In this document: in pieces, positions 287 through 51,313 of the stretch
Layout of the letters: every line of letters begins with the position of its first letter
How positions within the stretch are numbered: position 1 is the stretch's first letter
Assembly (NCBI GenBank): GCA_015055515.1
Contig: SVIC01000002.1
Coordinates: 62,001 to 126,000, forward strand
Length of the DNA: 64,000 nt
Direction of reading: 5' to 3'
From: Clostridiales bacterium
GTDB lineage: Bacteria; Bacillota; Clostridia; Christensenellales; UBA1242
Notes under the pieces: model-generated
Told to the model about the DNA's origin: nothing
The model's database searches: none
Seen by the model: only the letters and a program-made list of their open reading frames with translations
Translations under genes and position numbers: made by a program

Positions 287-1422
287 TACATCAACCCCCA
301 TATAAATGTTGATACCGTAATTATAGTACCTAATAACACCGACACTATTAGAAAAATATAGTCTCTTTTGTGAGCTTTATATATTTTATCCTGCTTTGGC
401 ATAAATATATCTATTGGATTTTTAATAGAGTTAAAATCCAGATTTAATTTCGTAGTACTCTCTACTAATTGCTTTATTTCATTTGAATCATAGACAATTG
501 GAGCATCCGATGTAGGATTGCCTTTGTTGTAAGCAGTATTAATGGCTTGCTCTACCTTTCTTATCATGGTATTCTCATACAATTTTTTTAATAATAAATA
601 CAGAACGAATATTAATAATATAGATCCTATTATTATAGAAAGCACTAATAAAAAGAAATTCATATTATAAATGCCAGAATAAACATTAGTAACAAAATTG
701 TTATAAGAAGCATTGTTATCCATTAGAAATGTATTAGTTATCGATATAAAATTATTTACGAAATGCACTATTATAGCTGGCCAAATATTCTTCGAAATTA
801 CTGAAATATAACCAATAATTACGCCCAGAATAATAGCATAAAACACTTGCACAATATTTAAGTGTATCAATCCGAACAATATTGAACTAATTATAATTGC
901 TTTATGAAAGCCAATATGCTTTGTTCCTTGCAGGCACATTCCCCTATGCAAGAATTCTTCACAGAATGCTGGGAGCAATGCTGTAGTAAATATTTGAGTA
1001 ATATAAGCGCCCAATGTCATTGTCCCACTACCACCACCACTTCTAAATCCAAACATAGTTATAATGCCATTAAATAATGTAGAAGTCATAATAGTAACTA
1101 CGTATAATACAATACCAAGTGCAAGTGATATAATTACAGTTTTGAAATTAATTTTATAGAAATTACAGGTATTAAATAATTGTCTAGGCTTAACCTTTAA
1201 CATTACACAATATAAGATCATTGGTAGGACAAATAAGCATATAACTTCAATTAATGTAGAGTATATAATATCTATAGCATTGTCAGATAATCCATTCAGC
1301 ATTCCAAGTGCGGATGAAATACGCACTCCAACAAACGCTACGAAAGCTATAAAATATATCATATAAGTCTTGTATACAGACTTTTTATTAGGCTCTGATA
1401 TGTATTTCATATTCAACTCCAC
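286..1422 (-). CDS. CPBP family intramembrane metalloprotease
   Basis: Multi-TM protein with EEFLHRG and LIHLN motifs (EExxxR / FxxxH-type CPBP motifs). Confidence 0.8.
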   Translation of the reverse strand: MELNMKYISEPNKKSVYKTYMIYFIAFVAFVGVRISSALGMLNGLSDNAIDIIYSTLIEVICLFVLPMILYCVMLKVKPRQLFNTCNFYKINFKTVIISLALGIVLYVVTIMTSTLFNGIITMFGFRSGGGSGTMTLGAYITQIFTTALLPAFCEEFLHRGMCLQGTKHIGFHKAIIISSILFGLIHLNIVQVFYAIILGVIIGYISVISKNIWPAIIVHFVNNFISITNTFLMDNNASYNNFVTNVYSGIYNMNFFLLVLSIIIGSILLIFVLYLLLKKLYENTMIRKVEQAINTAYNKGNPTSDAPIVYDSNEIKQLVESTTKLNLDFNSIKNPIDIFMPKQDKIYKAHKRDYIFLIVSVLLGTIITVSTFIWGLM

Positions 1423-2372
1423 ATACTAATTGTAGTAAATATCCAAGATATTATTGCGATCGATACACCGCAGATTGCATAAAATTTTTCTGTAAATGTG
1501 TATTCACTTAAGTGTCTCGTCTTGTTTACATTTACATTTGCTTTTGCGATATATCTAAATATAATGTATAGCAGTAACACGCCTAGAATTGACAGCAATG
1601 TTGCTACAAATATATTAGTAAAGGACCAATTTGGAACAACCATGCCACCTGATTGCATGGTAAAATAATGAGATATTAAAACAATTGCATTATTTGTTAA
1701 ATGTGTGATTATTGGATATATTATATTTCCTGTAAAATTCATCACCAACGCTAATATTATGCCAATAATAAATTGATAGAATGTCTGTTGTAATGACCCA
1801 TGCATAATAGCGAAAAGAAGTGCAGATACAATCACTGCAAATCTCGTAGAGTTTTCTGACTTAAGACCAGTAAATATTATACCTCTAAATATTAAATCCT
1901 CGAATATTGCTGGCAACAACCCAAGCATAAGTATGTTAAGGAATAGAAATCCTATGTTATCTGTTCTTACATTAATGTTATCATCTGGATTAAAGCCAAT
2001 TAATTCTAATAACGTATCAAAAAGGTTAGATATATTAGAAAAAAAAGTTATACAGATCACTCCAATTAATATTGCAAATAAAATGTATTTTATTTTTATT
2101 TTTTTATTTAGTCCTATAGCTTGTCTTATATTGTATTGCTTGCCTCTATTCTGCCAAAAGAAAAGTAATGCAAAAACTGCAGGACTTAATAAACAAGTAA
2201 CATATGTATAATCTGGACTTTTACTAAATTCGGTATTGGCAATACCTGTTACAGATATAATTATAGTGAATATAAATGACACTAATATCTGAAAAAGGAA
2301 CATATTGAAATATGTCTTATAACTATCCAACATAGAATATTGAGATTTTATATTATATGAATTATTCTTCAT
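1413..2372 (-). CDS. CPBP family intramembrane metalloprotease (second tandem copy)
   Basis: Multi-TM, EDLIFRG and AIMHGSLQQ motifs; overlaps upstream CPBP gene. Confidence 0.75.
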   Translation of the reverse strand: MKNNSYNIKSQYSMLDSYKTYFNMFLFQILVSFIFTIIISVTGIANTEFSKSPDYTYVTCLLSPAVFALLFFWQNRGKQYNIRQAIGLNKKIKIKYILFAILIGVICITFFSNISNLFDTLLELIGFNPDDNINVRTDNIGFLFLNILMLGLLPAIFEDLIFRGIIFTGLKSENSTRFAVIVSALLFAIMHGSLQQTFYQFIIGIILALVMNFTGNIIYPIITHLTNNAIVLISHYFTMQSGGMVVPNWSFTNIFVATLLSILGVLLLYIIFRYIAKANVNVNKTRHLSEYTFTEKFYAICGVSIAIISWIFTTISMWS

Positions 2373-2949
2373 TTATAAACTGCTCGAACTTAATCAATAT
2401 TTCTTCTTTGCCAGACTTATTCTTGGCGCTAGACATTAATATGTTGTCTACACCCATAGCTAGACTATTTGCAAGCTTCAACTTGGCGTTATTTTGCTGT
2501 GCTTTTGACATTTTGTCGCACTTTGTAGCGATAAGAATATATGGAATTCTAAAATATTCCAGATAATTCATCATGCTTTTATCTAGCTCGCTTGCTTCTA
2601 ATCGGCTATCTACCAATATACATACTAATTTAAGATCTTCTGATTTAGTTAGAAAATCCCCCAGTATTGTATCCCACTTCGCACTCTCACTCCTATTCAA
2701 CTTAGCAAAACCATAGCCTGGAAGGTCTACAAAATACATATTATCATTAATTTGAAAATAATTTATCAGTCTAGTTCTACCAGGAGTACTACTAGTTCTA
2801 GCCATACTCTTATTGTTAACTAAAAAATTAAGTAATGAACTCTTTCCTACATTACTCCTTCCAACAAATGCTATTATAGGCTTTCCATCATTTATTATCT
2901 CTGCGCCATTTGCTACGCTTTTTACAAATTTACAACTAGTTATTCTCAT
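2362..2949 (-). CDS. engB: Ribosome biogenesis GTP-binding protein YihA/YsxC (EngB)
   Basis: FVGRSNVGKSSLLN, TPGRTRLINYF, DLPGYGFA, ATKCDK motifs. Confidence 0.95.
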   Translation of the reverse strand: MRITSCKFVKSVANGAEIINDGKPIIAFVGRSNVGKSSLLNFLVNNKSMARTSSTPGRTRLINYFQINDNMYFVDLPGYGFAKLNRSESAKWDTILGDFLTKSEDLKLVCILVDSRLEASELDKSMMNYLEYFRIPYILIATKCDKMSKAQQNNAKLKLANSLAMGVDNILMSSAKNKSGKEEILIKFEQFINEE

Positions 2950-3035
2950 ATTAGGAAGATATCACACTCATCATCTTTTGTCAAATCATATCAACATCTA
3001 TAATAATTTAATTAAGTAATTTAGTGAGATACGAT

Positions 3036-3064
3036 GAAAAAGGATGTATCAGTGATACATCCTT
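3036..3064 (-). terminator. Rho-independent terminator downstream of Gly/Cys-rich ORF
   Basis: Hairpin aaggatgtatc-agt-gatacatcctt followed by T-run on minus strand. Confidence 0.7.
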
Positions 3065-3101
3065 AATATATAATGTTAACTATGTGTAAATATGTAGATT
3101 A

Positions 3102-3305
3102 TTAATATTTGTTACCGCAACCGCAGCAGTTTAATAATAACAATAATAGTATAATACTACTACAACAATTGTCATCACCGCCAAATCCCATATTGCAGTT
3201 ACCGCATAATAATAGTATTAATATTAACAAGCAGCAATCGTTGTCTTTGGCAACGTGACCGCCACCACCACAACCGCATCCGCCATGATTATTACCGAAA
3301 AACAT
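3102..3305 (-). CDS. Small Gly/Cys-rich protein of unknown function
   Basis: 67 aa, 11 Cys, two similar CC-(L/I)n-C units; strong AGGAGG upstream of ATG; terminator downstream. Confidence 0.7.
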   Translation of the reverse strand: MFFGNNHGGCGCGGGGHVAKDNDCCLLILILLLCGNCNMGFGGDDNCCSSIILLLLLLNCCGCGNKY

Positions 3306-3410
3306 CAGATGTGTCCTCCTATATGAAATTAAAAAGCACCAATTTATGTAAACAGCTGTTATATTGTTTTGCTTTTCTACTTCATAATATGCAGAGTACT
3401 AGATTTTGTG

Positions 3411-4979
3411 CTACTTATTATTAAAAAATTTTATAATTTTATTTTTAAGATTTTCTATACCTATATTTTGCTTTACAGATATAACAACTCCATCATTTAA
3501 CTTATTTTCGAAGTCAGATATATTAACCTTATCTACCTTGTTATATACTTTTATAATTGGCACAGTTGATCCTAATTTTTGCAACACATCAATAGATACA
3601 TTCATTTGCATCTCGTAATCTGGATTAGATATATCGATAACAAGCAGTAGCAGATCGGAATATATACATTCTTCTAATGTACTACTAAATGCTTCAATAA
3701 ATTCATGCGGCAGATTACTGATAAATCCAACGGTGTCGGTAAATACTATCTCTTTCCCTTTTCCCATCCATACCTTTCTGGATGTAGTATCTAGGGTCGC
3801 AAATAATTCATCTTTTGCGTATATATTATCTTTTGCAAGTAAATTTAGCAGGCTACTTTTACCACTATTAGTGTATCCTACTATAGATACTGTTGGATTG
3901 GTATTACTTTGCCTATTTTTTCTATTTAATTCTCTGTGCTTCTTTAGTTTTTCTAACTCAGCAGATTTTTTTAATATATTAGCTTCTACAACCCGCCTAT
4001 TCATCTCCAATTTGGTCTCTCCAGGTCCTCTCATGCCTACTCCACCGCCATATCTGTTGGATGTATTAACATATGATTTTAACCTAGGTAGCATATATTT
4101 CAATTGAGCCAATTCTACTTGCAGTTTACCTTCATTGGTTCGAGCGCGCTTTGCAAATATGTCTAAAATTAGCATACTTCTATCTATTACTTTTACATTT
4201 AGATAATCAGATAAATTACTTTGCTTACTGCTAGACAATTCGTTTTCAAATATAACTAAATTAGCATCTGTTTTCGCTATCAAATCTTTTAGTTCTTCCA
4301 CTTTACCAGAGCCCAATAAGAATTTTGGATCGGGAGCAATCTTGTTTTGGGTTAAAACCCCCACTACTTCTATACTATCTGTAGAACATAGACCTTTTAA
4401 TTCTTCCACTGATTCGGTCATATTAATGATTGATCGTTTGATATCTACAGCCACTAATATCGCCTTGTCTTTTTCTGACTTGGTGTCGATAAGTTTTGTA
4501 GCATTTTTCTTCTCTCTTGCGATCTTATCATTAATTTTGTCCATTATGCCATATTTATTAATATACCCTGCATAATCATAATGCTCATTACATATTTTAC
4601 CCGAATCCAAATATGCTATATCAAAAGACCCTATACCGTTATCCATAACAGATACAGCAATAATATAATCCGGATTGTTTTTCTGTAAGAACAACATATC
4701 TTTCTCGCTTAATGTAGAAGGCGCAAAAGGATGTGTATGAATAATACGCATATTATGGCTATCAATATTAATTTCTACACTGCCAGATTGGCTATCACTT
4801 ACCCTGATATCTAATATTTCACCCTTTCTATTAGAAATTACAGCAATTTCTAATTTTTCTATTCGTGAAATATCACATATATCGCTTAAGAGTTTTTCAT
4901 CTATTAGAGTATCTTTTGTATATATTTTTCCTATATATGATTGTAGTAAGTCTTTATATTTTTGTTTTATTTCTTTCAT
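3411..4979 (-). CDS. hflX: GTPase HflX with N-terminal JAMM-like domain
   Basis: GGVGMRGPGETKLEMNRR, SIVGYTNSGKSSLLN, DTVGFISNLPHEFIEAF; N-terminal HTHPFAPSTLSEKD. Confidence 0.93.
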   Translation of the reverse strand: MKEIKQKYKDLLQSYIGKIYTKDTLIDEKLLSDICDISRIEKLEIAVISNRKGEILDIRVSDSQSGSVEINIDSHNMRIIHTHPFAPSTLSEKDMLFLQKNNPDYIIAVSVMDNGIGSFDIAYLDSGKICNEHYDYAGYINKYGIMDKINDKIAREKKNATKLIDTKSEKDKAILVAVDIKRSIINMTESVEELKGLCSTDSIEVVGVLTQNKIAPDPKFLLGSGKVEELKDLIAKTDANLVIFENELSSSKQSNLSDYLNVKVIDRSMLILDIFAKRARTNEGKLQVELAQLKYMLPRLKSYVNTSNRYGGGVGMRGPGETKLEMNRRVVEANILKKSAELEKLKKHRELNRKNRQSNTNPTVSIVGYTNSGKSSLLNLLAKDNIYAKDELFATLDTTSRKVWMGKGKEIVFTDTVGFISNLPHEFIEAFSSTLEECIYSDLLLLVIDISNPDYEMQMNVSIDVLQKLGSTVPIIKVYNKVDKVNISDFENKLNDGVVISVKQNIGIENLKNKIIKFFNNK

Positions 4980-4988
4980 TTCTTTTTC

Positions 4989-5804
4989 CTAAATAAGTTC
5001 AGAAATCTTGTTATTAATATCAGTAATTACATTTGTAATAGTATCTTTTATCTCATCTGAAATAACATCATTTTCTATATTTATGTCTATTTCTAATATA
5101 TTTGATCCCACAAGTAGTATTCTTCTATAGAAATTAACTAGGTAAATATTATCTATTCCAGACTGCTCCTCTAAGATAGATCTATAACTTTCTAAGTTGT
5201 TGTAATATGTACATAATAATCCTAAGATTGAGTTATCTCCACCATCTACAAAATAAGTATAAGATTTAACGCAAGTCAGCATAGTAGACATATAATAATT
5301 ATCAGGCTGTAAATAATTAATGTTTTTACCTATATTTGCCTGTAAATTCTCTTTGACTATCGTAACTGCTTGATTTGTCTCATTACATAGAAACAAAGCC
5401 TTAACTAATTTACACTTATAATAATTATCTTCATCTATTAACGAGCTTTTAGTCAATACGTCAATATTACTATTGTAATTCGTTCTATTAAGATAATTGA
5501 TGTAATCGGCATACCTTTCGTTTTGTTGCATTAAGGAATAATCTTCTATATACGACATATAATCAGATATCTCCAGATCAATGTTGCAAGCCTTTGCAAC
5601 ATAATTGATATCTAAGGACCTATTGTATTCTGACATATATAGATTAGACGCAATCTTTTTTAGCCCCATATTATAGCAAATATTAGCTGAAAAACCGCTA
5701 AAACAAGATAAAAGTATGCTTATTGCAATAATAAACACAAAAATTAATACTAACAAAGTAAATAAAATAACTTTTATAACCGATTTCTTATTTGACTTTT
5801 CCAT
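4989..5804 (-). CDS. Hypothetical membrane-anchored protein
   Basis: 271 aa ORF with one N-terminal TM helix; same strand and tight spacing to hflX. Confidence 0.6.
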   Translation of the reverse strand: MEKSNKKSVIKVILFTLLVLIFVFIIAISILLSCFSGFSANICYNMGLKKIASNLYMSEYNRSLDINYVAKACNIDLEISDYMSYIEDYSLMQQNERYADYINYLNRTNYNSNIDVLTKSSLIDEDNYYKCKLVKALFLCNETNQAVTIVKENLQANIGKNINYLQPDNYYMSTMLTCVKSYTYFVDGGDNSILGLLCTYYNNLESYRSILEEQSGIDNIYLVNFYRRILLVGSNILEIDINIENDVISDEIKDTITNVITDINNKISELI

Positions 5805-5869
5805 ATATTAGATTATACAAAAAAAATATCACAAAGACAACTTATTTGCTTTATGATATTTTTGTATTT

Positions 5870-6559
5870 CTATTTTATACTTTTGGCTAATATTTCTCCA
5901 GTCAATGGGTTAATTATCTCAGAGATGGTTGTTCCATTTGTAGCATATATCTGAACATACCAGTAATATTCACCTTTGTTATCTGTATTGTTCACAATCT
6001 TGATATAACACTCTGCATCCAATTTGTTGTTATTTATAAATTGCTTTATATATTCTTTCATATCATTACATACTATTTTCAAAGCATTTAGACCATCATA
6101 TTTCCACCCAATATTCGCTTTTGATAATTCCACATGTTTTTCATTATTATCTATGCTGAAGGTAATATCTAGATTATCTAAATCCCTCGCATCTATGTTA
6201 AGATCTACAACAAAACTATTATCATATGGATTATTAAGCATTTCGCCACTGTACTCTATCTCATTTATCACAGCTTTATATGTCACAGTTCTCTCGTTAT
6301 ATCCATAGTTTTTGTCAGTAAAATTTAATTTAATAATTGCAAAATCTACCAATTCACTCTGTGTTCCATTCATTGAATAGTCGCTTTCACGCTCTCCTGA
6401 CATAAATGTTACCGACATATCATCATCATAGAAATCCAGCAAATTATATCTAATCTCAGATATATTTTCCTTTGCAATATTATAAGTATTATCTATACAA
6501 CTAACAAGCATTAGACTAACGAACATCATAATGCATATAAAAAAATAAAACTTCTTCAT
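5870..6559 (-). CDS. Hypothetical lipoprotein
   Basis: Signal peptide with lipobox-like LVSC; 229 aa. Confidence 0.65.
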   Translation of the reverse strand: MKKFYFFICIMMFVSLMLVSCIDNTYNIAKENISEIRYNLLDFYDDDMSVTFMSGERESDYSMNGTQSELVDFAIIKLNFTDKNYGYNERTVTYKAVINEIEYSGEMLNNPYDNSFVVDLNIDARDLDNLDITFSIDNNEKHVELSKANIGWKYDGLNALKIVCNDMKEYIKQFINNNKLDAECYIKIVNNTDNKGEYYWYVQIYATNGTTISEIINPLTGEILAKSIK

Positions 6560-6604
6560 ACCTCACTCCTATGAGATTATATGAGAAGTTCTATTATAAT
6601 ATGA

Positions 6605-7033
6605 CTAAATATCAAGTAATTTTAGCCTTGCATTGTGTCTACCACCTTCAAATGGTGTTGAAAGGAAAGTATCAATCATTTTCTTTGCTTTGCTTATTTT
6701 TATTGAATTACCCGCCAGTACAAGAACGTTTATATCATCATCATTCCTTGCTAGAAAAGTAGTCTTTACATCATGACACACTCCCGCTCTTATTCCTTTG
6801 TACCTATTGGCTCTCATACATATTCCTATACCCGTACCACAGCAAAATATTCCTTTGGCATTCTTTAGTTCAAGCATTTTCTCACAGCCCTGCATTGCAT
6901 ATTCAGCATAATTATCCGCCTTGTCATACTCTTTGCTGGCATATTCTATATATTCTATATTCTTCTTGTCTAGATACTTCTTGATCTCTAGCATTATATT
7001 ATATCCCCTGTGATCGTAAGCCAATACTATCAT
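6605..7033 (-). CDS. rpiB: Ribose-5-phosphate isomerase B family (RpiB/LacAB)
   Basis: AYDHRGY, GIFCCGTGIGICMRANRYKGIRAGVCHD. Confidence 0.92.
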   Translation of the reverse strand: MIVLAYDHRGYNIMLEIKKYLDKKNIEYIEYASKEYDKADNYAEYAMQGCEKMLELKNAKGIFCCGTGIGICMRANRYKGIRAGVCHDVKTTFLARNDDDINVLVLAGNSIKISKAKKMIDTFLSTPFEGGRHNARLKLLDI

Positions 7034-7045
7034 TATAACTCCATC

Positions 7046-7123
7046 CTATTCTAAATGTTTTCTAAATATTAATCTAAGCAGCCCTGCTAAAAACTTAGGA
7101 CACTTAAAACAAATTATCCTCAT
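7046..7123 (-). CDS. spoVM: Stage V sporulation protein SpoVM-like micropeptide
   Basis: 25-codon ORF MRIICFKCPKFLAGLLRLIFRKHLE, aligns with B. subtilis SpoVM (MKFYTIKLPKFLGGIVRAMLGSFRKD); AAGGAG RBS upstream; lies directly after rpe as near B. subtilis spoVM. Confidence 0.87.
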   Translation of the reverse strand: MRIICFKCPKFLAGLLRLIFRKHLE

Positions 7124-7174
7124 ATACACTCCTTATAATCTAGGAATATATATGATTTTTATAGTCTATGTGTG

Positions 7175-7852
7175 CTAAATATTAGATTTTCTTCTGTACA
7201 TCATTTTAGACTTCTTAAATATTGCACTCTTATCTCTGGCAAGATACATAGCATTGCCCATAACCAGTATATCCGCCCCTGCATCTACTACTTGTTGCAT
7301 ATTATTCTCATTTATACCACCATCTACCTCAATCTTAATATTAAGATTTTGAGAATCAATAATAGTTCTTAATTCTTTTATCTTCTCATATGTAGATTCA
7401 TTAAATGTTTGACCACTCATGCCTGGCTCTACACTCATTATTAATACCAAATCAAATAGTGGCAATAATTTCTTAATACGTTCAATAGGCGTATTAGGCT
7501 TAATTGAGATACCCATTAATTTCTTATTATTTCTAATGTAATTTGACATTTTTATAATATTTTGAACACTATTATATGCTTCATAATGTGTAGTTATATA
7601 TGTCGCTGGCAAATGCATATATTTCTGAACATTTGTCATTGGCTCTACCATCATTAAATGCACATCCATGCCAATTGTAGTTCTACTCGCGATATCATCT
7701 AATAATGCAACATCTAAGCAGTGATTACCTACAAATATGCCGTCCATTACATCACAGTGAATAAATTCTGCCCCAGCTGATTGTAATACAGATATGTAAT
7801 CTAATAATTGGTCCTCGGGGCTAGGATTGGTACTAGGGAATATTTTAATCAT
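7175..7852 (-). CDS. rpe: Ribulose-phosphate 3-epimerase
   Basis: FIHCDVMDGIFVGN, DVHLMMVEP, MSVEPGMSGQTF, IEVDGGIN. Confidence 0.95.
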   Translation of the reverse strand: MIKIFPSTNPSPEDQLLDYISVLQSAGAEFIHCDVMDGIFVGNHCLDVALLDDIASRTTIGMDVHLMMVEPMTNVQKYMHLPATYITTHYEAYNSVQNIIKMSNYIRNNKKLMGISIKPNTPIERIKKLLPLFDLVLIMSVEPGMSGQTFNESTYEKIKELRTIIDSQNLNIKIEVDGGINENNMQQVVDAGADILVMGNAMYLARDKSAIFKKSKMMYRRKSNI

Positions 7853-8684
7853 ATTTTTTTCTCCATTTTTCTTTTAGCAAATTATATAACTGCACATATC
7901 TCTTATATCTTAGATCGTTTATTTTATTTTCTTTCACTAGTTTTGCTATCATACAGTCTTTATCATCAATATTAGTATGATCACAATTAGTATATTTGCA
8001 CTTACCAATTTTGTCAAATTCTTTGTAATACTTACCCAAATCTTCAGGTTCTATGTCTATATTAAGATCTAGCATGCTAAATCCAGGCGTATCCGCTATC
8101 TTAATATCATCTACTACATATATTTCACTGTGTCTAGTGGTGTGCTTACCTCTATTGATTTTTCTACTAAGACCATTGGTCTTTAATTTCAATTTAGGAC
8201 TAATGGCGTTCAATATAGTACTTTTACCTACTGCACTTTGTCCTGCAAAAGCAGACAACATACCATTCAGTTTTTTCCTTAATTCATCTATACCAATACC
8301 ATTAGTACCACTTACACATATTATGTCTGATACGGCATCTGAATACTGCTTTTTTATATCCAATATTTCATCTTCTGTATACAAATCCACTTTGTTTATT
8401 ACTATAAATGGTACTATATTGTTGATATAACAATATACTAATAATTTATCTACTAATAAATAATCTGTTTTTGGCACTTTGGAAAATATAATGAATAATT
8501 GATCTAGATTCGCTATAGGCGGTCTAATTAACACATTTCTTCTTGGCAGAACTTTGCTTACTACTTGTTTTTCTCCATAATCATTAGGAATTAAATCAAC
8601 GTAATCACCTACTAGAATTTTTGATCTCTTTGCATTGCCAGAAGGTATGCAAGATATTTCTTCATCATTGCATAGTGCTGTCAT
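7845..8684 (-). CDS. rsgA: Ribosome small-subunit-dependent GTPase A (start probably upstream at a non-ATG codon)
   Basis: NKVDL, FAGQSAVGKSTILN, DTPGFSMLDL, CKYTNCDHTNIDDKDCMI zinc-binding motif. Confidence 0.93.
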   Translation of the reverse strand: MTALCNDEEISCIPSGNAKRSKILVGDYVDLIPNDYGEKQVVSKVLPRRNVLIRPPIANLDQLFIIFSKVPKTDYLLVDKLLVYCYINNIVPFIVINKVDLYTEDEILDIKKQYSDAVSDIICVSGTNGIGIDELRKKLNGMLSAFAGQSAVGKSTILNAISPKLKLKTNGLSRKINRGKHTTRHSEIYVVDDIKIADTPGFSMLDLNIDIEPEDLGKYYKEFDKIGKCKYTNCDHTNIDDKDCMIAKLVKENKINDLRYKRYVQLYNLLKEKWRKKYD

Positions 8685-8724
8685 GTTCCCATTTAAGATC
8701 TTTAATATTTGTGCTTCGATAGTT

Positions 8725-9771
8725 CTAATCCTTCTTTTCTTTTAATTCTTTATTACGTAACTGACCACAAGCGCCTTCAATATCATCACCCAGACTTCTT
8801 CTTAATGTTGCACTTATCTGATGTGATGTTAAGATATTTAAGAATTGCTTGCAGCTGCCAATTGTAGGTGCTTTTAACGACCTGCCTTCAACCTCGTTCA
8901 ATCTTATTAAATTAACATGACAAGGAAAATCTGTCAAAAGATTTACTAATTGCATCGCGTGATTAGGTGTATTATTTACTCCCTCTATTAATGTATATTC
9001 TATAGTAATCCTTCTACTAGTAACAAGATTATAATACTTTGCGCTTTCAAGTATTGCAGATATAGGATAACTCTTTGCTATAGGCATAATTTGTTTTCTA
9101 ATAGTATCATTTGGAGCATGCAATGATATTGACAAGGTCACATTATAACCCAAGTCTGCCAGTTTTTCTATCTTTGGTGCAAGCCCACAAGTAGATATTG
9201 TTATATTCCTTACACTGAAATTATATAATGACTCGCTTGTAATTTGAGATAAGAACCTCGCAACATTATCGAAATTATCCAGAGGTTCGCCCGATCCCAT
9301 AAGAACAATATTAGATATTTTTCTGTCCTTTAAGTTGCCACCTAGATATTTATTTACAGCAATAATTTGACCTAAGATCTCTCCAGCGGATAAATTCCTT
9401 ACAAATCCATTAAGCCCACTAGCACAGAATGCACAATTCATCTTGCATCCAACTTGCGTACTTACGCATATTGAATTACCAAAAGCGTATTTTAACAGTA
9501 CTCCCTCTATAATATTCCCATCATATAGTTTGTACAAGAATTTTACGCTACCATCTTTGCTTTCTTTTGCCTTGTATATTTCTATCGGTTGTAATATTGC
9601 ACCAGCATCAATTATTTTCTCTAATAAAGACTTATTAATATTTATTTTTTCACCAAAATTTTTGCCGTTATACATGGCATCTAATAGCTGTTTCGCTCTA
9701 AATTTTGGCTCACCCATAGCCATAACTATTTCTTCTAATTCTTCCAGATTATAATCTAATAATATTTTCAT
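8725..9771 (-). CDS. rlmN: 23S rRNA (adenine2503-C2)-methyltransferase RlmN
   Basis: Radical SAM CKMNCAFCASG, MGSGEPLDN, RRSLGDDIEGACGQL. Confidence 0.96.
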   Translation of the reverse strand: MKILLDYNLEELEEIVMAMGEPKFRAKQLLDAMYNGKNFGEKININKSLLEKIIDAGAILQPIEIYKAKESKDGSVKFLYKLYDGNIIEGVLLKYAFGNSICVSTQVGCKMNCAFCASGLNGFVRNLSAGEILGQIIAVNKYLGGNLKDRKISNIVLMGSGEPLDNFDNVARFLSQITSESLYNFSVRNITISTCGLAPKIEKLADLGYNVTLSISLHAPNDTIRKQIMPIAKSYPISAILESAKYYNLVTSRRITIEYTLIEGVNNTPNHAMQLVNLLTDFPCHVNLIRLNEVEGRSLKAPTIGSCKQFLNILTSHQISATLRRSLGDDIEGACGQLRNKELKEKKD

Positions 9772-11063
9772 TCCCTTCTTAATCTCCCTATGAAGAACCC
9801 TTCACATCCACTTATATGAGGATAAAAAGTTCTCAATTTATGATACACTTCTGTCTCTACGCCATTGGTCTCAACATCAATAATTTTATAATTTTTATTA
9901 TTTTTAAGAAAAATTCCTACAATCTTCTCATTCTCTGCTTTTAATATAGAACATGTGCTGTATATTAACTCACCACCACTTTTCACATATTTGGCACCAT
10001 TTTCTAATATTTGCAGTTGGATATTACTTAACTCTTTTATTGAGTCTTTTGTTCTATTTAATAGTACATCGGGTTTTTTATTAGTTATTCCTAAGTTACT
10101 ACATGGCACATCGCATAGCACAACATCAAATGAATTTTCCCAATCTTTTCTATATATAGTTGCATCATTGATAATAGTTGTTATGTTATCTATATCGTAA
10201 GTATGAGCATATTTATTAATCAAATCCACTCTCATATCAGATACATCACATGATACAACTTGTGCATCGGGATTGTTTTGCGCAATTAATACGCTTTTAC
10301 CTCCAGGCGCAGCACAAAGATCAAGCACTCTTTTCGCATCTCTTCTCACATTATTTGCTGTAATTATGCTTGGCAATCCTTGCACAACATAACATTTTGA
10401 AATGTTTGGTATATTTAATAACTCTGAATATTCTACATACATAGTATTTTTGTATGCTGATTTAATATGCTTGACCTTATTTTCATCCAGTTTTGCAATA
10501 AAATCCTCGATAGTCATCTTATCTTCAAGTACACGGATATGTGTCAATGTAGTGAGTTCACAGTTAAGGAAATTCTCTACAAAATCAGTATCATGATCAT
10601 TAATTAACTCTTCGATTGCCCATATTGGATAAGAATATTTTACACTCAAGTACAACAAATAATCTTTGTCCTTGCTTGGCATTGTGGCATTGCGCTTAGC
10701 GATATTTTTTAGTGTGCCATTTATAAATCCAGCTACATATTTAGGCATAACAGCCTTAGCAATATTAACAAGTTCATTCACACAAGCGAAATCTGGAATA
10801 CTATTAAGATAGTACATGATATAAGTACCGATCTTAAGTAGCAATACTGCTAGTTTGTCTGGACTCTTCTTAACATACTGATTAATGATATATTCTAACG
10901 AAATATCTTTTTCTATAACACCATACACAATCTTAGTAACAAGCTTTGTATTACTTGTAGAGTGCTCTCGCTGGATTGTCTTATTTAGTTCAATTCCAGC
11001 ATATGCACCATTCTCATACACTTTTCTTAATATTGTGTAGGCTTGTCTTATCTCCTTATTCAC
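9768..11063 (-). CDS. rsmB: 16S rRNA (cytosine967-C5)-methyltransferase RsmB
   Basis: VLDLCAAPGGKS, DVPCSNLG, YSTCSI motifs; NusB-like N-terminus. Confidence 0.93.
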   Translation of the reverse strand: MNKEIRQAYTILRKVYENGAYAGIELNKTIQREHSTSNTKLVTKIVYGVIEKDISLEYIINQYVKKSPDKLAVLLLKIGTYIMYYLNSIPDFACVNELVNIAKAVMPKYVAGFINGTLKNIAKRNATMPSKDKDYLLYLSVKYSYPIWAIEELINDHDTDFVENFLNCELTTLTHIRVLEDKMTIEDFIAKLDENKVKHIKSAYKNTMYVEYSELLNIPNISKCYVVQGLPSIITANNVRRDAKRVLDLCAAPGGKSVLIAQNNPDAQVVSCDVSDMRVDLINKYAHTYDIDNITTIINDATIYRKDWENSFDVVLCDVPCSNLGITNKKPDVLLNRTKDSIKELSNIQLQILENGAKYVKSGGELIYSTCSILKAENEKIVGIFLKNNKNYKIIDVETNGVETEVYHKLRTFYPHISGCEGFFIGRLRRE

Positions 11064-27116: not shown

Positions 27117-27348
27117 TTGGTGCCGAAGACCGGACTAATCAATAAATCAACATAATATAAAAATCTCTACTACACATAATAATCCACTGCAGTAAATGTA
27201 CGCCGTGTAGCGTTAGCAGAACGGTCCGTGCCGGTTCAAGTGAGATTGTGTTAACAATCCATGATGCATTAGCAACATACCGTTCGAGGCACAGACAACA
27301 AAAAAATCCCCGTAGGGATTATTTTTGTTTGGTGCCGAAGACCGGACT
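27117..27348. repeat. 20-nt direct repeat pair (27117-27136 and 27329-27348, ttggtgccgaagaccggact); second copy is the 3' end of tRNA-Leu(TAA)
   Basis: Exact match of both copies by eye; 212 bp offset. Confidence 0.9.
27303..27320 (-). terminator. Terminator immediately after tRNA-Leu(TAA)
   Basis: aatcccta-cggggattttttt on minus strand. Confidence 0.7.
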
Positions 27349-27416
27349 TGAACCGGTACGATATTGCTACCGCAGGATTTTAAGTCCTGTGCGTCTGCCT
27401 ATTCCGCCACTTCGGC
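27331..27416 (-). tRNA. tRNA-Leu (TAA)
   Basis: Reverse complement GCCGAAGTGGCGGAATAGGCAGACGC...ACTTAAAATCC...GGTTCAAGTCCGGTCTTCGGCACC. Confidence 0.95.
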
Positions 27417-46540: not shown

Positions 46541-47140
46541 TTACATTTCTATACAATTTTCTTTTACTTTAATTTTTTCATTAATTCTATCTTGTGCATC
46601 TCTTAGGGCATATGGATCATCACTTTTGCCTATATATATTTTCATCTTGTCTACAATCCCAGTATCATTATAGTGATCAATTCTCTTCTCATGCTCTGGG
46701 TTTAATGCTATAGCCATATTACCATTATTATCTAACTTTACAACACCTCTTACTATATGACAATCCTCTTCGTCCTCTTCTACAGCAAGGAAATACTTAT
46801 TCTTGTCATCCTCTTTGCCTATTTTCTCTATCTCAGACTCATAGAACTCATTAAAAAATGATGACTGTCGCAAAAATCCAGATACATACTCTTGATCATC
46901 ATTTATACTTTTCTCTGGTAGATTTACATTATCAAAATCAAATTCATTACCATTGTTATCTAATTTTGACACTAGATCTTCGGACAAAATATCTTCTGCT
47001 TTTATCATAGATACAGTGTGCTCTAAAAAGATATGTCCGAATATATAATCTGACGACGCCTCATCCTTTTCAGTAACATCGTACACCCCAAAGAACTTAT
47101 CTTTTTCTATTTCTATATTCTTATAATCTAATTTTGCCAT
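46541..47140 (-). CDS. Hypothetical protein
   Basis: 199 aa soluble acidic ORF with terminator-like hairpin downstream. Confidence 0.6.
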   Translation of the reverse strand: MAKLDYKNIEIEKDKFFGVYDVTEKDEASSDYIFGHIFLEHTVSMIKAEDILSEDLVSKLDNNGNEFDFDNVNLPEKSINDDQEYVSGFLRQSSFFNEFYESEIEKIGKEDDKNKYFLAVEEDEEDCHIVRGVVKLDNNGNMAIALNPEHEKRIDHYNDTGIVDKMKIYIGKSDDPYALRDAQDRINEKIKVKENCIEM

Positions 47141-47158
47141 ACAATCACCTTTTTTATA

Positions 47159-47896
47159 TTAACAATGACCGCCATCCAATACTATCACTTGACCAGTAAT
47201 ATAACTGGCTTTATCCGAAGCCAGGAACACAACCGTGTCAGCAATCTCCTCTGGTTCTGCCCATCTACCCATATGATATTTTGCGGTCTCTTGCTCCACA
47301 AAATCCATTGGCAATTCTGCATTCATATCGGTATTAACCCAGCCAGGAGCCACGGCATTTACATTAATGACAGGAGCATACTTCATAGACAAATCTTTTG
47401 TCAAAGACTGAAGTGCCAACTTAGTCATTGCATAATCTGCCGTGCCTGGATTAAAGTCATACATGCCACTAGTACTACTAATATTTACAATCTTACCTTT
47501 GCCTTGTTTTACCATAATAGGAGCAATGAGTTGACTTAAGAATAATGGTGCCAGCATATTTGTTTTTACTATTTCCATGTTTTCTTCATATTTTATATCT
47601 TCAAATTCTCTATCGTATACAATGCCAGCATTATTGACCAATACATCTATTTTTCCATATTTTTCTATGATATATTTCACCATTGTCTTTTGCGCTGTTA
47701 TATCAGCAACATCCGCCTTGTACGCCTCAGCATTACCACCATGTGCGACTATCTCTTCTACAACTGAATTGGCAGATTTGCTATTGCTTTTATAGTTTAT
47801 TATTACAATATCTCCAATTTCAGCAAATTTTATTGCAGAGGCTCTGCCTATGCCTCTACCTCCACCAGTAATTAAAACAACTCTTCCTTTCATCAA
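47159..47896 (-). CDS. SDR family oxidoreductase (FabG-like)
   Basis: LITGGGRGIGRASA, VNNAGI, YAMTKLAL, GGHC C-terminus. Confidence 0.92.
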   Translation of the reverse strand: MMKGRVVLITGGGRGIGRASAIKFAEIGDIVIINYKSNSKSANSVVEEIVAHGGNAEAYKADVADITAQKTMVKYIIEKYGKIDVLVNNAGIVYDREFEDIKYEENMEIVKTNMLAPLFLSQLIAPIMVKQGKGKIVNISSTSGMYDFNPGTADYAMTKLALQSLTKDLSMKYAPVINVNAVAPGWVNTDMNAELPMDFVEQETAKYHMGRWAEPEEIADTVVFLASDKASYITGQVIVLDGGHC

Positions 47897-47913
47897 TTTC
47901 CATACCTCACTTT

Positions 47914-48228
47914 TTATCTATTATCCGTACTAATAAGGAATATTTTATCATGGAAAGCACCGCGTTTTTCTACTTTTTTATTTCTGATTGTATCAAATTC
48001 TTCATAAGAACAACCTTTTACATCCAGTATTGCCCTAAGTACTTCTTCTAGATCTGCCAGTTCTTCAATCTCACCAGACTCTAGATATTCTCTCATTTCT
48101 TCTTGCAACTTAGTGTTCAATTCCTTCAAGTACTGCATGTCATCCAGTATCCTAGTCTCACAACTTTCGCCATTTGCATTAATTATAGTAGGAATCTTAT
48201 CTCTCACTAATTTATTAAATATTTTCAT
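47914..48228 (-). CDS. Phosphoribosyl-ATP pyrophosphohydrolase/MazG-like house-cleaning protein
   Basis: MKIFNKLVRDKIPTIINANG...KLQEEMREYLESGEIEELADLEEVL. Confidence 0.8.
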   Translation of the reverse strand: MKIFNKLVRDKIPTIINANGESCETRILDDMQYLKELNTKLQEEMREYLESGEIEELADLEEVLRAILDVKGCSYEEFDTIRNKKVEKRGAFHDKIFLISTDNR

Positions 48229-49129
48229 TCTCATCCTCACTTTGCGATAGTTCATCTATTCTCAACACTATCTCATCACACATATTGGATATTGTGCCGT
48301 TATTTTTCAACTTTTGCTTTGTATCCCATTCTTTTGCATTGAACCATGTCCTTTGTTGCAAATATCTATTTGATGGAGTATTAAATAGACCATTCGTACT
48401 AATTACTAAATCTGCGTTCTTGTAGAAATGGTCTATATTATGTAAAAGATACTCATTTACATCATTACCTCTGGCTAGATTTCTGTCATCATAGTCTAGT
48501 CCTGGACATAACAACACTGTATTTGTTTTGCTTAAGATCTCATCAGTCTTGTCTTGAAGTTTAGGTATGGATATTCCATATTTCTTAAGTCGCATTTTGG
48601 TAAACATATTAGTCTTTTCACCAACCATATCCCAGCCAAAGGACCCTGGAGGATCTAAAACAATTGGTTGGTCTACCACACTATACACATATTCTATCAT
48701 TTTGATAGCAACATCATTAAGAGTAATTATTACTTCTTGCTCGCTAAATGATTGATATGGCTGATCCATGTATGCATTTACAACATCATATAGCGGAGTA
48801 AAGTCCTTTATTAGATTATGATAGTTGTTATACATATCTACAAATTCATTAACTAAAGCAATTTCCTTGTCTTTATATTCATCATTTAAGCAATCTTTTA
48901 GCATTGGATCTCTTGCTATATCTTTGATCACATCTTTCTTGTATTGCTCTTGGTCAAACTTATTAGTATTAATAACCCCTCTCATCTCTAGATCTACCAA
49001 CTGCATAAGATCATCTATACAAATATTCGGCATACCCAATCTACTAGACAACTCCGACGCAAGTAGGCTTTTGCCAACCCCTGATGGACCTATTAATGAT
49101 ATAGATTTCCTCAAATTCTCTTCTGTCAT
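48215..49129 (-). CDS. Shikimate-kinase-like P-loop protein
   Basis: SLIGPSGVGKSLLASELSSRLGMPNICIDDLM. Confidence 0.7.
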   Translation of the reverse strand: MTEENLRKSISLIGPSGVGKSLLASELSSRLGMPNICIDDLMQLVDLEMRGVINTNKFDQEQYKKDVIKDIARDPMLKDCLNDEYKDKEIALVNEFVDMYNNYHNLIKDFTPLYDVVNAYMDQPYQSFSEQEVIITLNDVAIKMIEYVYSVVDQPIVLDPPGSFGWDMVGEKTNMFTKMRLKKYGISIPKLQDKTDEILSKTNTVLLCPGLDYDDRNLARGNDVNEYLLHNIDHFYKNADLVISTNGLFNTPSNRYLQQRTWFNAKEWDTKQKLKNNGTISNMCDEIVLRIDELSQSEDENENI

Positions 49130-49139
49130 ATCTCTCCTA

Positions 49140-49703
49140 CTAGAATAATATCCTCATTATACTATCATACTTTTCTTTGGTTAACTCTTTTGTCTCAGCA
49201 CTCATCTTTGCATAACTTTTCTGGATCTTCTTCTTTACGAAATTATTCGCTGTCATAATGTCTTCACCCAAATACGCCCTCCAGCATATTAGTTCCACCA
49301 CACTATCCATATGGCTCACAGCATCGGCATCAGCCACGCAAATCTCTTCTATACTGTATTTGTCCCTGACTACGCTGGCTCTGTGATTTAATATACAACC
49401 CTTTACCCTAGATACAAAATTATCATCATATCCATCCTTAGTTAATATCGCACCAGCCAACTCAGCACCTAGTACATGGTGGTTATCACTATTAGCAAAA
49501 TCTAGTAAATTAGCATAATCATGAAACAACGCCGACACCTCTACAATGTCTCTATCTGCACCATATTTCTCTGCCAGCATTATGGCATTATTTATTACAG
49601 GTAGCAAATGATACTGCCATGTTTGACCTATTTGACAATTCTGTGGCCTATCGTAATGTTCCGCTTGTTCTTTGATTAAATCATAATACTTCTGGTATTT
49701 CAT
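49140..49703 (-). CDS. HD domain-containing protein
   Basis: VSALFHDYANLLDF, HHVLGAELA, ILNHRAS. Confidence 0.85.
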   Translation of the reverse strand: MKYQKYYDLIKEQAEHYDRPQNCQIGQTWQYHLLPVINNAIMLAEKYGADRDIVEVSALFHDYANLLDFANSDNHHVLGAELAGAILTKDGYDDNFVSRVKGCILNHRASVVRDKYSIEEICVADADAVSHMDSVVELICWRAYLGEDIMTANNFVKKKIQKSYAKMSAETKELTKEKYDSIMRILF

Positions 49704-49775
49704 ATACACCTCAAGCATGAGTATATCACAGAACACTATAAATATAAAATAAAAAAAGCCTCCAAATAGAGACTT

Positions 49776-50249
49776 TTAATTCAATATCCATAGTGCAATA
49801 TTAAGTGTTGTGGCTATACATACCCACACTGGATAAAGGGATATAATGAGGCCATTCATAGCATCCTCTTTGCATATCTCAAAATACAGTCTTAGTGCAA
49901 AAAGTGCATTAATTATAATTACCACATTGCCTAAGAATAATTGTTGCAAAGTAAAGAATACAAGGCACCACAATACATTTAGTACACCATTAATTACAAG
50001 CAAAACAATATTTTCCTTGCTAATAGGTGTTCGATTTTGCCACTTAATCAGTATCCATGCAAATAGCACATATATCACCGTCCATATTATAGGAATAACA
50101 ATAGACGGTATCCACTCTGTCGGCTTATTTAATCCCTCGAACCACCGCATGCCTATCTGACTAAATAATGTGCCTAGTCCAGCAATAATTATTATTGGAA
50201 TTATAATTGATACAATGTTACTTTTTCTCATAGTTGTATTTTTGCCCAT
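49776..50249 (-). CDS. TspO/MBR family protein
   Basis: WFEGLNKPTEWIPSIVIPIIWTVIYVLFAW, NVLWCLVFF. Confidence 0.88.
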   Translation of the reverse strand: MGKNTTMRKSNIVSIIIPIIIIAGLGTLFSQIGMRWFEGLNKPTEWIPSIVIPIIWTVIYVLFAWILIKWQNRTPISKENIVLLVINGVLNVLWCLVFFTLQQLFLGNVVIIINALFALRLYFEICKEDAMNGLIISLYPVWVCIATTLNIALWILN

Positions 50250-50305
50250 TTTTAGATAATTATACATAGAAAAAGTGCTTGCAAGACATTGCAAACACTT
50301 TTATT

Positions 50306-50974
50306 TTATTCCTTTGTCATATCATCGATTGTCAGTAGATTATCATCAATAGGCTGACCTATTCTATCATATATTTCTTTTACCTCTTCTGCCTTTACAC
50401 CCTCTGTGAACCATTCAAAATATCTAGATTTGATGTCTGAACGTTCGAATAACTTTTCATCGCCAGATATGCTATATAGATCTGATATCTCTAAATCTAT
50501 ACCTTTCTTTAATTCAGCCGGAACATAAGTAAAAATATATTTACCATTCACATAGCTAGATACATCATGAAAATGACCAATAGGGCTGGCTTCTTGCTTC
50601 TTAAAGCCGTAATCAGCCAATTTTTTACTAGTTAATCCCACACTTGCTTCAGAGCATGGCTCAATATTATTTTCTGCCTCAACCTTTTCCGAAATAAAAG
50701 AAATAACCTTGTATGCATCCTCATAAGTCATACCATTAGGCAATACAAATGGACTAGTTAGACCTAATGTCCTACCCAATTTCAAATCGTTGGTACCATA
50801 TTGATAAAAAGTCTCTAAATGTACATATAACATACGAACAGCCTTCGTCTTTTCATCATTATTTGTAACAACATCTTGACTATTCGTATTATTTTCTTTT
50901 CTAAATTTGCTTATATAATCCTTTATGCTCATAATTACCCTCTTATATCTATGTATATAATGATGATAACACAC
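50306..50974 (-). CDS. Hypothetical protein
   Basis: 222 aa ORF; probable start at internal MSIKDYI. Confidence 0.6.
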   Translation of the reverse strand: MCYHHYIHRYKRVIMSIKDYISKFRKENNTNSQDVVTNNDEKTKAVRMLYVHLETFYQYGTNDLKLGRTLGLTSPFVLPNGMTYEDAYKVISFISEKVEAENNIEPCSEASVGLTSKKLADYGFKKQEASPIGHFHDVSSYVNGKYIFTYVPAELKKGIDLEISDLYSISGDEKLFERSDIKSRYFEWFTEGVKAEEVKEIYDRIGQPIDDNLLTIDDMTKE

Positions 50975-51060
50975 ATTTTACACTTGTCAAGAGTAAAAGA
51001 AATAGAGCAATGCCTATAAAACAACAAAAAAAAACCACGACTATGTCGGGCTTATTGATT

Positions 51061-51251
51061 GTGGTGCGGATGAGAGGACTTGTCTATTGAACGACAGTTC
51101 AATACTTCGGGTGGCAGTATTAACTGACGGGGTCCCGAATACAGTTCAAGTCACAATGCTACAGCATTGTTATTGCGACAGCAATTCTCATCTAGACACA
51201 AAAAAACCTCGGTGAAACTGAGGCTATTAGTGGTGCGGATGAGAGGACTTG
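51061..51251. repeat. 22-nt direct repeat pair (51061-51082 and 51230-51251, gtggtgcggatgagaggacttg); second copy is the 3' end of tRNA-Leu(TAG)
   Basis: Exact match of both copies; 169 bp offset. Confidence 0.9.
51201..51226 (-). terminator. Terminator immediately after tRNA-Leu(TAG)
   Basis: minus strand GCCTCAG-TTTCA-CCGAGGTTTTTTT. Confidence 0.75.
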
Positions 51252-51313
51252 AACCCCCACTCTTTCGAACTAGATCCTAAGTCTAGCGCGTCTGCCAATT
51301 TCGCCACATCCGC
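51231..51313 (-). tRNA. tRNA-Leu (TAG)
   Basis: GCGGATGTGGCGAAATTGGCAGACGCGCTAGACTTAGGATCTAG...GGGGGTTCAAGTCCTCTCATCCGCACCA. Confidence 0.95.

Follow-up and report, generated by a model that had tools for sequence, protein, structure and literature searches.

Hairpin-rich, gene-less inserts behind tRNA and tmRNA genes in Clostridiales: a candidate family of miniature mobile DNA with a predicted folded attachment site

An insert behind tRNA-Leu(TAG)

tRNA genes are classic docking sites for mobile DNA, and their occupants are mostly islands of kilobase size that bring along their own integrase. Here we describe a gene-less insert of 169 bp that lies 3' of a leucine tRNA gene in a 64,000-nt stretch of DNA from a Clostridiales bacterium of the gut (assembly GCA_015055515.1, contig SVIC01000002.1, positions 62,001 to 126,000). 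The whole stretch is referred to as the window and its numbering is used for all features of this locus. The tRNA-Leu(TAG) gene (51231..51313, minus strand), which was identified by ARAGORN and by Rfam model RF00005, is the host gene of the insertion and closes a Gly-Arg-His-Gln-Lys-Leu cluster. All evidence presented is computational and was obtained mostly from metagenome-assembled genomes.

The window contains the 22-mer GTGGTGCGGATGAGAGGACTTG in exactly two places, at 51061 and at 51230, both on the plus strand and 169 bp apart, just as the original prediction made from the bare sequence had claimed. Since the tRNA gene is located on the minus strand, the insert must be read on this strand, as a 3' insert, and the features given in the following are minus-strand features. 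Copy 1 of the duplicated segment (51231..51251) extends from C56 in the T-loop of the tRNA to A76 of the CCA end, and copy 2 (CAAGTCCTCTCATCCGCACCA, 51062..51082) is an exact 21-bp copy of it (21/21). The repeat unit, which is the presumed mobile unit, comprises the 169 bp of one period from C56-A76 up to the base preceding copy 2 (51083..51251). The units of tandem arrays at a Met tRNA gene and at the gene for transfer-messenger RNA (tmRNA) likewise begin exactly at C56.

Directly 3' of the tRNA follows a terminator-like hairpin with a T-run (51200..51225) that we read as part of the insert. It is succeeded by arm5 (GATGAGA, 51186..51192), the complement of the T-stem 3' side and acceptor in the tRNA and in copy 2, by hairpin 1 (ATTGC-TGTC-GCAAT, 51172..51185), hairpin 2 (ACAATGC-TGTA-GCATTGT, 51153..51170) and arm3 (GACTTGAAC, 51144..51152), the complement of the tRNA T-loop and T-stem. 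A conserved type-1 core hairpin with a covarying stem (TTCGGGACCCCGTCA...TGCCACCCGAAG, 51105..51139), as defined by the core alignment described below, and hairpin 3 (TATTGAAC-TGTC-GTTCAATA, 51085..51104) complete the insert; the dinucleotide GA then immediately precedes C56 of copy 2. Another hairpin with a T-run (51026..51053) is located beyond copy 2 and would represent the pre-existing terminator in case of an insertion. The plus-strand sequences GTTCAAGTC (51144-51152) and TCTCATC (51186-51192), the two interrupting hairpins, the core stem, the ATTGAAC hairpin and the terminators on either side had all been picked out beforehand and are indeed present.

In the real tRNA, the segment with which arm3 is complementary is GTTCAAGTC. 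Copy 2 is preceded by AGA instead, and arm3 therefore holds tRNA sequence from upstream of the duplication. In the predicted fold of the window element arm5 pairs with copy 2 to form a closing stem (P1); the apical stem P4 is minimal, and the partner of arm3 in the minimum-energy fold is copy 2. The minus-strand fold had a z value of -4.98 against dinucleotide shuffles, none of 200 being as low, and the plus-strand fold one of -4.82.

Related elements behind many tRNA genes

A 185-bp query detected the same core elsewhere in the 1.07-Mb genome of the organism, beside Arg, Ser and Glu tRNAs, and in genomes of the same genus behind Leu(CAA), Gln, Asn, Thr, Ser, Arg and Glu tRNAs and tmRNA. A covariance model built from an alignment of 18 cores (R1) matches the window element at 51082-51143 with 61.5 bits. 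When applied to 311 genomes of the taxonomic family it gave about 55 matches, which are distributed over 19 genomes and 7 of 42 genera; the weakest of them, for example in genomes G334 and G241, are probably due to chance. When the R1 loci were read individually, nearly all of them turned out to sit 3' of a tRNA or tmRNA and on the same strand. A sample of 397 genomes of the order yielded no R1 match beyond the organism's own genome.

A downstream 3'-end copy with at least 14 of 21 identical positions is present at 49 tRNAs or tmRNAs. The spacing has a median of 158 bp and the anatomy is constant across 12 tRNA/tmRNA types; other core types were found at further tRNAs. The same window harbours a second, decayed type-2 element behind tRNA-Leu(TAA) (27118..27350, minus strand; copy at 27118-27138, 19/21), which, like the large family, goes beyond the original prediction. 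According to our reading of the listed sequences, about 16 of the 20 surveyed tRNA-unit ends in the organism's own genome carry an element or a relic and only about 3 ends do so in the sister species G009; the distribution is patchy across close relatives.

The inserts are fitted to their respective host tRNAs. For 39 elements the complementarity between insert and own tRNA amounted to 16.69 compared to 11.71 (sd 0.36) for permuted tRNAs, a value not reached in any of 20,000 permutations, and 24 of the 39 preferred their own tRNA over every other one. The core module is common to different tRNAs in the 18-sequence alignment, and the hairpin 1 motif GCAGA..TCTGC is found in 13 of 62 elements (background 0.16%) that sit behind Glu, Gln, Asn, Ser, Met, Leu and Trp tRNAs. 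Core and hairpin 1 are thus common across tRNAs and the arms are tRNA-specific, that is, the same modules occur in different target-matched arms. Because many other tRNAs are followed by an insert of this architecture, fitted to the tRNA in each case, the pattern at tRNA-Leu(TAG) is not a product of chance.

Searches in other collections gave little. Rfam detected only tRNA in the window at gathering and relaxed thresholds and nothing over the element at E values up to 1. Core patterns had 0, 0, 1 and 0 matches in IMG/VR, none of them convincing; the sole match, to the relaxed core pattern (L244, IMGVR_UViG_2568526601_000001, 4333-4367), is probably accidental. Distant blastn against phage and plasmid collections revealed no match to the element. 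A pattern search of contigs also matched Mycobacterium, Zoogloea and others. Eight of the matches from outside the Clostridia (L043, L044, L048, L052, L058, L061, L069 and L074) were run through ARAGORN, which found a tRNA at one of the eight only, a Trp tRNA on the opposite strand, and L043, L048 and L074 resemble coding sequence on reading; the remaining matches outside the Clostridia were set aside.

A common fold with a covarying core

From 25 hand-delimited elements we have drawn a common fold. It is closed by P1, in which arm5 and the C56-CCA copy are paired; then come hairpins 1 and 2, the apical P4, which joins arm3 to a short sense copy of the T-stem, and finally the core hairpin and hairpin 3. 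In the predicted folds of these 25 elements, inverted segments resembling attachment (att) sequences are able to pair as P1 and P4. Hairpins 1 and 2 are present in nearly all of them, and the number of hairpins inside P1 is five in 14 elements, four in 5, six in 3 and three in 3. Perfect hairpins of at least 6 bp were counted 2.28 times per element as compared to 0.15 times in shuffles. The core stem has a covariation score of 0.245 versus 0.053 for shuffled alignments, none of 500 shuffles being as high; the core pair 5-38, for instance, is UA in 8, CG in 7 and GC in 3 sequences.

G-U pairs are scarce (38/1128 in top-strand folds), and G-T and A-C mismatches are roughly balanced. This is unlike the expectation for an RNA that is selected on one strand, and it weakly favours a structure at the level of DNA.

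A precise empty site and arrays phased at C56

In genome G012 the tRNA-Glu(TTC) gene is joined directly to the flank ATTTTAATCTCTATC..., and the same flank trails copy 2 in G007 and in G000. The tRNA-Glu(TTC) gene of G012 is therefore a precise empty site, and the insert duplicates the 21 bp of C56-A76. A simple decayed tandem duplication of the tRNA, which the original prediction had named as the outcome that would speak against its proposal, is not what this comparison revealed, and the lack of covariation or of other instances, which it had named as well, was not borne out either. The terminator within the insert differs between G007 and G000 at the Glu site and the terminator past copy 2 is conserved, from which it follows that the first terminator is part of the insert. 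At tRNA-Leu(TAG), genomes G002, G006 and G009 have no element and G012 has an element with another core. Tandem arrays have periods of 190, 192, 218 and 152 bp, and those of 190 bp (Met) and 192 bp (tmRNA) begin at C56 of the genuine gene. The empty site, the patchy distribution, the differing cores at orthologous tRNAs and the C56-phased arrays together point to site-specific insertion.

The insertions are located at the T-loops or anticodon loops of tRNA and tmRNA genes and not at dif by XerC/XerD; for some of the Ile and Ser elements our reading places the site in the anticodon loop and not in the T-loop. T-loop and anticodon-loop sublocations as well as tmRNA are also used by tyrosine-integrase islands (PMC4383910).

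Mechanistic models

The original prediction had offered two readings, a very small integrative element that targets the tRNA and has a folded attachment site, or a structured RNA acting on or mimicking the tRNA 3' end. The other instances, the covariation, the precise empty site and the tandem arrays favour the former. The insertion geometry is that of islands, and the inverted target copy resembles the attP(+) of CTXphi and, in its logic, the folded attC of integrons; we therefore propose a folded-site integrative element. The insert is probably a non-autonomous integrative element, 150-220 bp long and devoid of genes, with an attachment site that is folded from a single strand, and it would be moved in trans. 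The elements look like an undescribed family of miniature mobile DNA that targets tRNA genes. We infer mobility by site-specific recombination, folding of single-stranded DNA and a trans-acting recombinase.

In this model the element would recombine site-specifically with the 3' end of a tRNA or tmRNA gene, in the T-loop at C56 or, for a subset of elements, in the anticodon loop. The inserted unit would supply a terminator and a replacement C56-CCA end, by which the tRNA would be kept intact and correctly terminated. A single strand of the element is assumed to fold in such a way that arm5 and the C56-CCA copy constitute the right half-site (P1) and arm3 and the short sense copy of the T-stem the left half-site (P4), and folding would restore the T-arm of the tRNA as double-stranded DNA. 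Paired hairpins would be positioned at the crossover, hairpins 1 and 2 on one side and the core hairpin and hairpin 3 on the other. A tyrosine recombinase provided in trans, either by a prophage or as the single host Xer, may then recombine the folded site with the tRNA gene.

The genomes contain one Xer protein of about 350 residues with a PF00589 domain each and, sporadically, phage integrases. Two PF00589 matches are present in the organism's own genome, a 348-aa Xer-like protein that adjoins a LexA-like open reading frame (ORF), and an inovirus integrase. No PF00589 gene is located beside the window element, and the 169-bp unit is too small for a gene. No transposase-bearing parent element turned up, and no search was aimed at transposases. 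An inovirus was considered as the carrier and rejected: the G000 element is located beyond the prophage, with attR on one side and the host flank on the other, and the inovirus marker was found in only 2 of 13 genomes of the genus. The G000 prophage itself (L125, G000:C3:21500-41000, approximately 650-7035) is inovirus-like, has a size of about 6.3 kb and has tRNA-Glu as its insertion site, where it separates the tRNA from the structured element. Its genes include a Rep (weak PF23343 match), an ATPase that is Zot-like by appearance and a tyrosine integrase (PF00589).

Several points weigh against the integrative-element model. The PF00589 genes show no evident link to the presence of elements, the inovirus marker is as rare as stated above, no carrier was found in phages and plasmids and none that is convincing in IMG/VR, and a circular or excised form was not observed. 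Target-matched arms are not predicted by ordinary site-specific recombination, and tandem arrays could also be produced by homologous recombination. The lower folding energy of the bottom strand is accounted for by base composition.

A more far-reaching version, which we put forward only tentatively and consider possible rather than probable, is that of a new class in which a gene-less module colonises most tRNA and tmRNA genes, its arms being re-copied or programmed for each target T- or anticodon arm. Such a module might be mobile or domesticated by the host, and the tRNA set would then constitute a distributed, integron-like cassette platform.

Among the alternatives, the structured-RNA reading of the original prediction is the most likely, though we regard it as improbable. 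Here the elements would be a family of structured non-coding RNAs, transcribed by read-through from the tRNA or from a promoter of their own, with a six-way junction and a CCA end, and the antisense arms would bind, sequester or regulate the neighbouring tRNA or its precursor. The strong conserved fold and its covariation are what one would expect of such an RNA, as are arms that match the neighbouring tRNA including bases beyond the duplicate, and in the Ser element of G012 the changes in copy 2 preserve top-strand pairing via five G-T pairs. However, a terminator separates the tRNA from the element in nearly all cases, no convincing promoter is present inside the element (best match 9/12), and in tandem units there is hardly space for one. 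G-U pairs are few and no strand asymmetry was seen; there is no Rfam match, and the elements are patchy among close relatives.

Considerably less plausible is a programmable guide, that is, an RNA or single-stranded DNA of the element that pairs with the target T-arm and directs insertion, so that retargeting would amount to a rewriting of the arms. Target-specific arms on both sides of the crossover, combined with common non-target modules, would fit this idea, and so would an arm3 that spans target bases not carried by the element's own copy 2. An associated protein was, however, not found, the arms could equally be kept by the need of the folded site to match its target, and they are imperfect or missing in some copies, e.g. 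C16 at tRNA-Arg. A tRNA 3' end that was duplicated in tandem and has since decayed, or the remnant of an excised prophage, with hairpins arising by chance or as terminators, is very improbable and already contradicted, for although direct tRNA 3'-end copies are common integration scars and the element at tRNA-Glu of G000 is separated from its tRNA by an inovirus prophage, it lies outside that prophage, the insertion is precise relative to the empty site, and anatomy and spacing are constant across 12 tRNA/tmRNA types with a covarying core and modules common across tRNAs.

Neighbouring genes and single-gene units

Downstream of the window element a promoter-like site (TTGACA-16-TATCAT, 50963..50990, minus strand; a consensus match only) precedes an ORF of 222 aa without a Pfam match (50306..50974, minus strand) that represents possible cargo. 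The 222-aa ORF has only two homologs in other genomes of the genus, one of them about 1 kb away from another array of tRNA-Leu elements. It is the first of seven tightly packed minus-strand genes of accessory type (46541-50974), namely the 222-aa unknown, TspO, an HD domain protein, an AAA-like protein, an unknown, an SDR and another unknown. No further Leu(TAG) 3' copies that would define a cassette array were found among the downstream ORFs of the window.

Behind tRNA-Glu(TTC) of G000 (L212, G000:C3:12000-23500, approximately 6500-10100) the element is followed by single-gene units for a TrpF-like protein, an S51 peptidase, a GNAT protein and a NUDIX protein. The tRNA 3' end marks the bounds of the first two units, which have a terminator, a promoter region and a conserved AT-rich 3' tail in common. 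One single-gene unit of this kind is present at tRNA-Glu in each of G012 and G007, and the tail is present in G001. In its arrangement, the gene array at the Glu site (loci L212, L213 and L214) appears integron-like but anchored on a tRNA. At tRNA-Arg of G000 a GNAT gene is located between element copies, and a related GNAT gene is found behind tRNA-Asn in G006. These sequences are suggestive of the capture of cassettes, in which the structured elements themselves may have had a part.

Note that at L009 (G000:C16:25500-30000) a GNAT gene and a pseudo-tRNA-Arg are enclosed by two cores at a distance of 1036 bp. The 3' copies of these cores do not match tRNA-Arg and the arms are absent, possibly as a result of non-cognate insertion. 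At L129 (G005:C1:322000-336000) two near-identical 80-bp segments, extending from core to CCA, are located 1 kb apart behind tRNA-Leu(GAG). They flank a reverse-oriented 269-aa gene; a homolog of the 222-aa ORF of the window and a Phage_30_3 protein are encoded nearby.

Comparison with known systems

In CTXphi, two att-like sequences in inverted orientation pair with each other within a forked hairpin of some 150 nt, the attP(+), and thereby create the recombination site (PMC3089051). The present elements resemble this site and other Xer-exploiting elements in that inverted copies of a tRNA att-segment pair around hairpins in a region of about 130-150 nt. They differ in targeting tRNA and tmRNA genes rather than dif, in the absence of phage genes from the unit, and in having target-specific arms and extra hairpins at the crossover. 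Integron attC sites are likewise folded recombination sites (PMC3053210), and short structured sites, inverted half-sites and arrays of units are common to both systems, as are single-gene units (GNAT, S51, NUDIX, TrpF-like) near the same tRNA sites. In contrast to integrons, a tRNA gene serves as the anchor and most units are gene-less. No IntI was identified, the two PF00589 proteins of the organism's own genome not having been classified against IntI models, and with respect to the R''/L''-L'/R' boxes of attC (RYYYAAC..GTTRRRY) the P1 and P4 half-sites pair but no GTTRRRY was recognised by eye. A description of integron-like arrays at tRNAs was not found in the open-licence literature.

Islander-type tyrosine-integrase islands share the restored tRNA, the displaced 3' fragment in the same orientation, the use of tmRNA and the tandem arrays (PMC4383910). 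Those islands, however, carry an integrase and kilobases of genes, whereas the present elements are gene-less and have 150-220 bp, and only in the latter is the target copied in inverse orientation and split by hairpins. Miniature inverted-repeat transposable elements and repetitive extragenic palindromes (REP/REPIN) are also small, gene-less, palindromic, multi-copy and presumably mobilised in trans; unlike them, the elements described here are site-specific at tRNA 3' ends, the duplication is a tRNA segment and the arms are target-specific. The elements share their logic with known kinds of mobile DNA and are a member of none of those that could be tested.

If the proposed model is true, these elements would constitute a folded-DNA recombination system beyond integrons and Xer phages, and they would pose the question of how an element rewrites its arms to match a new target. 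The combination of a replacement end and a terminator would suggest how small genomes tolerate insertions at essential tRNAs, and the single accessory genes that are clustered at these sites point to a way in which genes may be captured.
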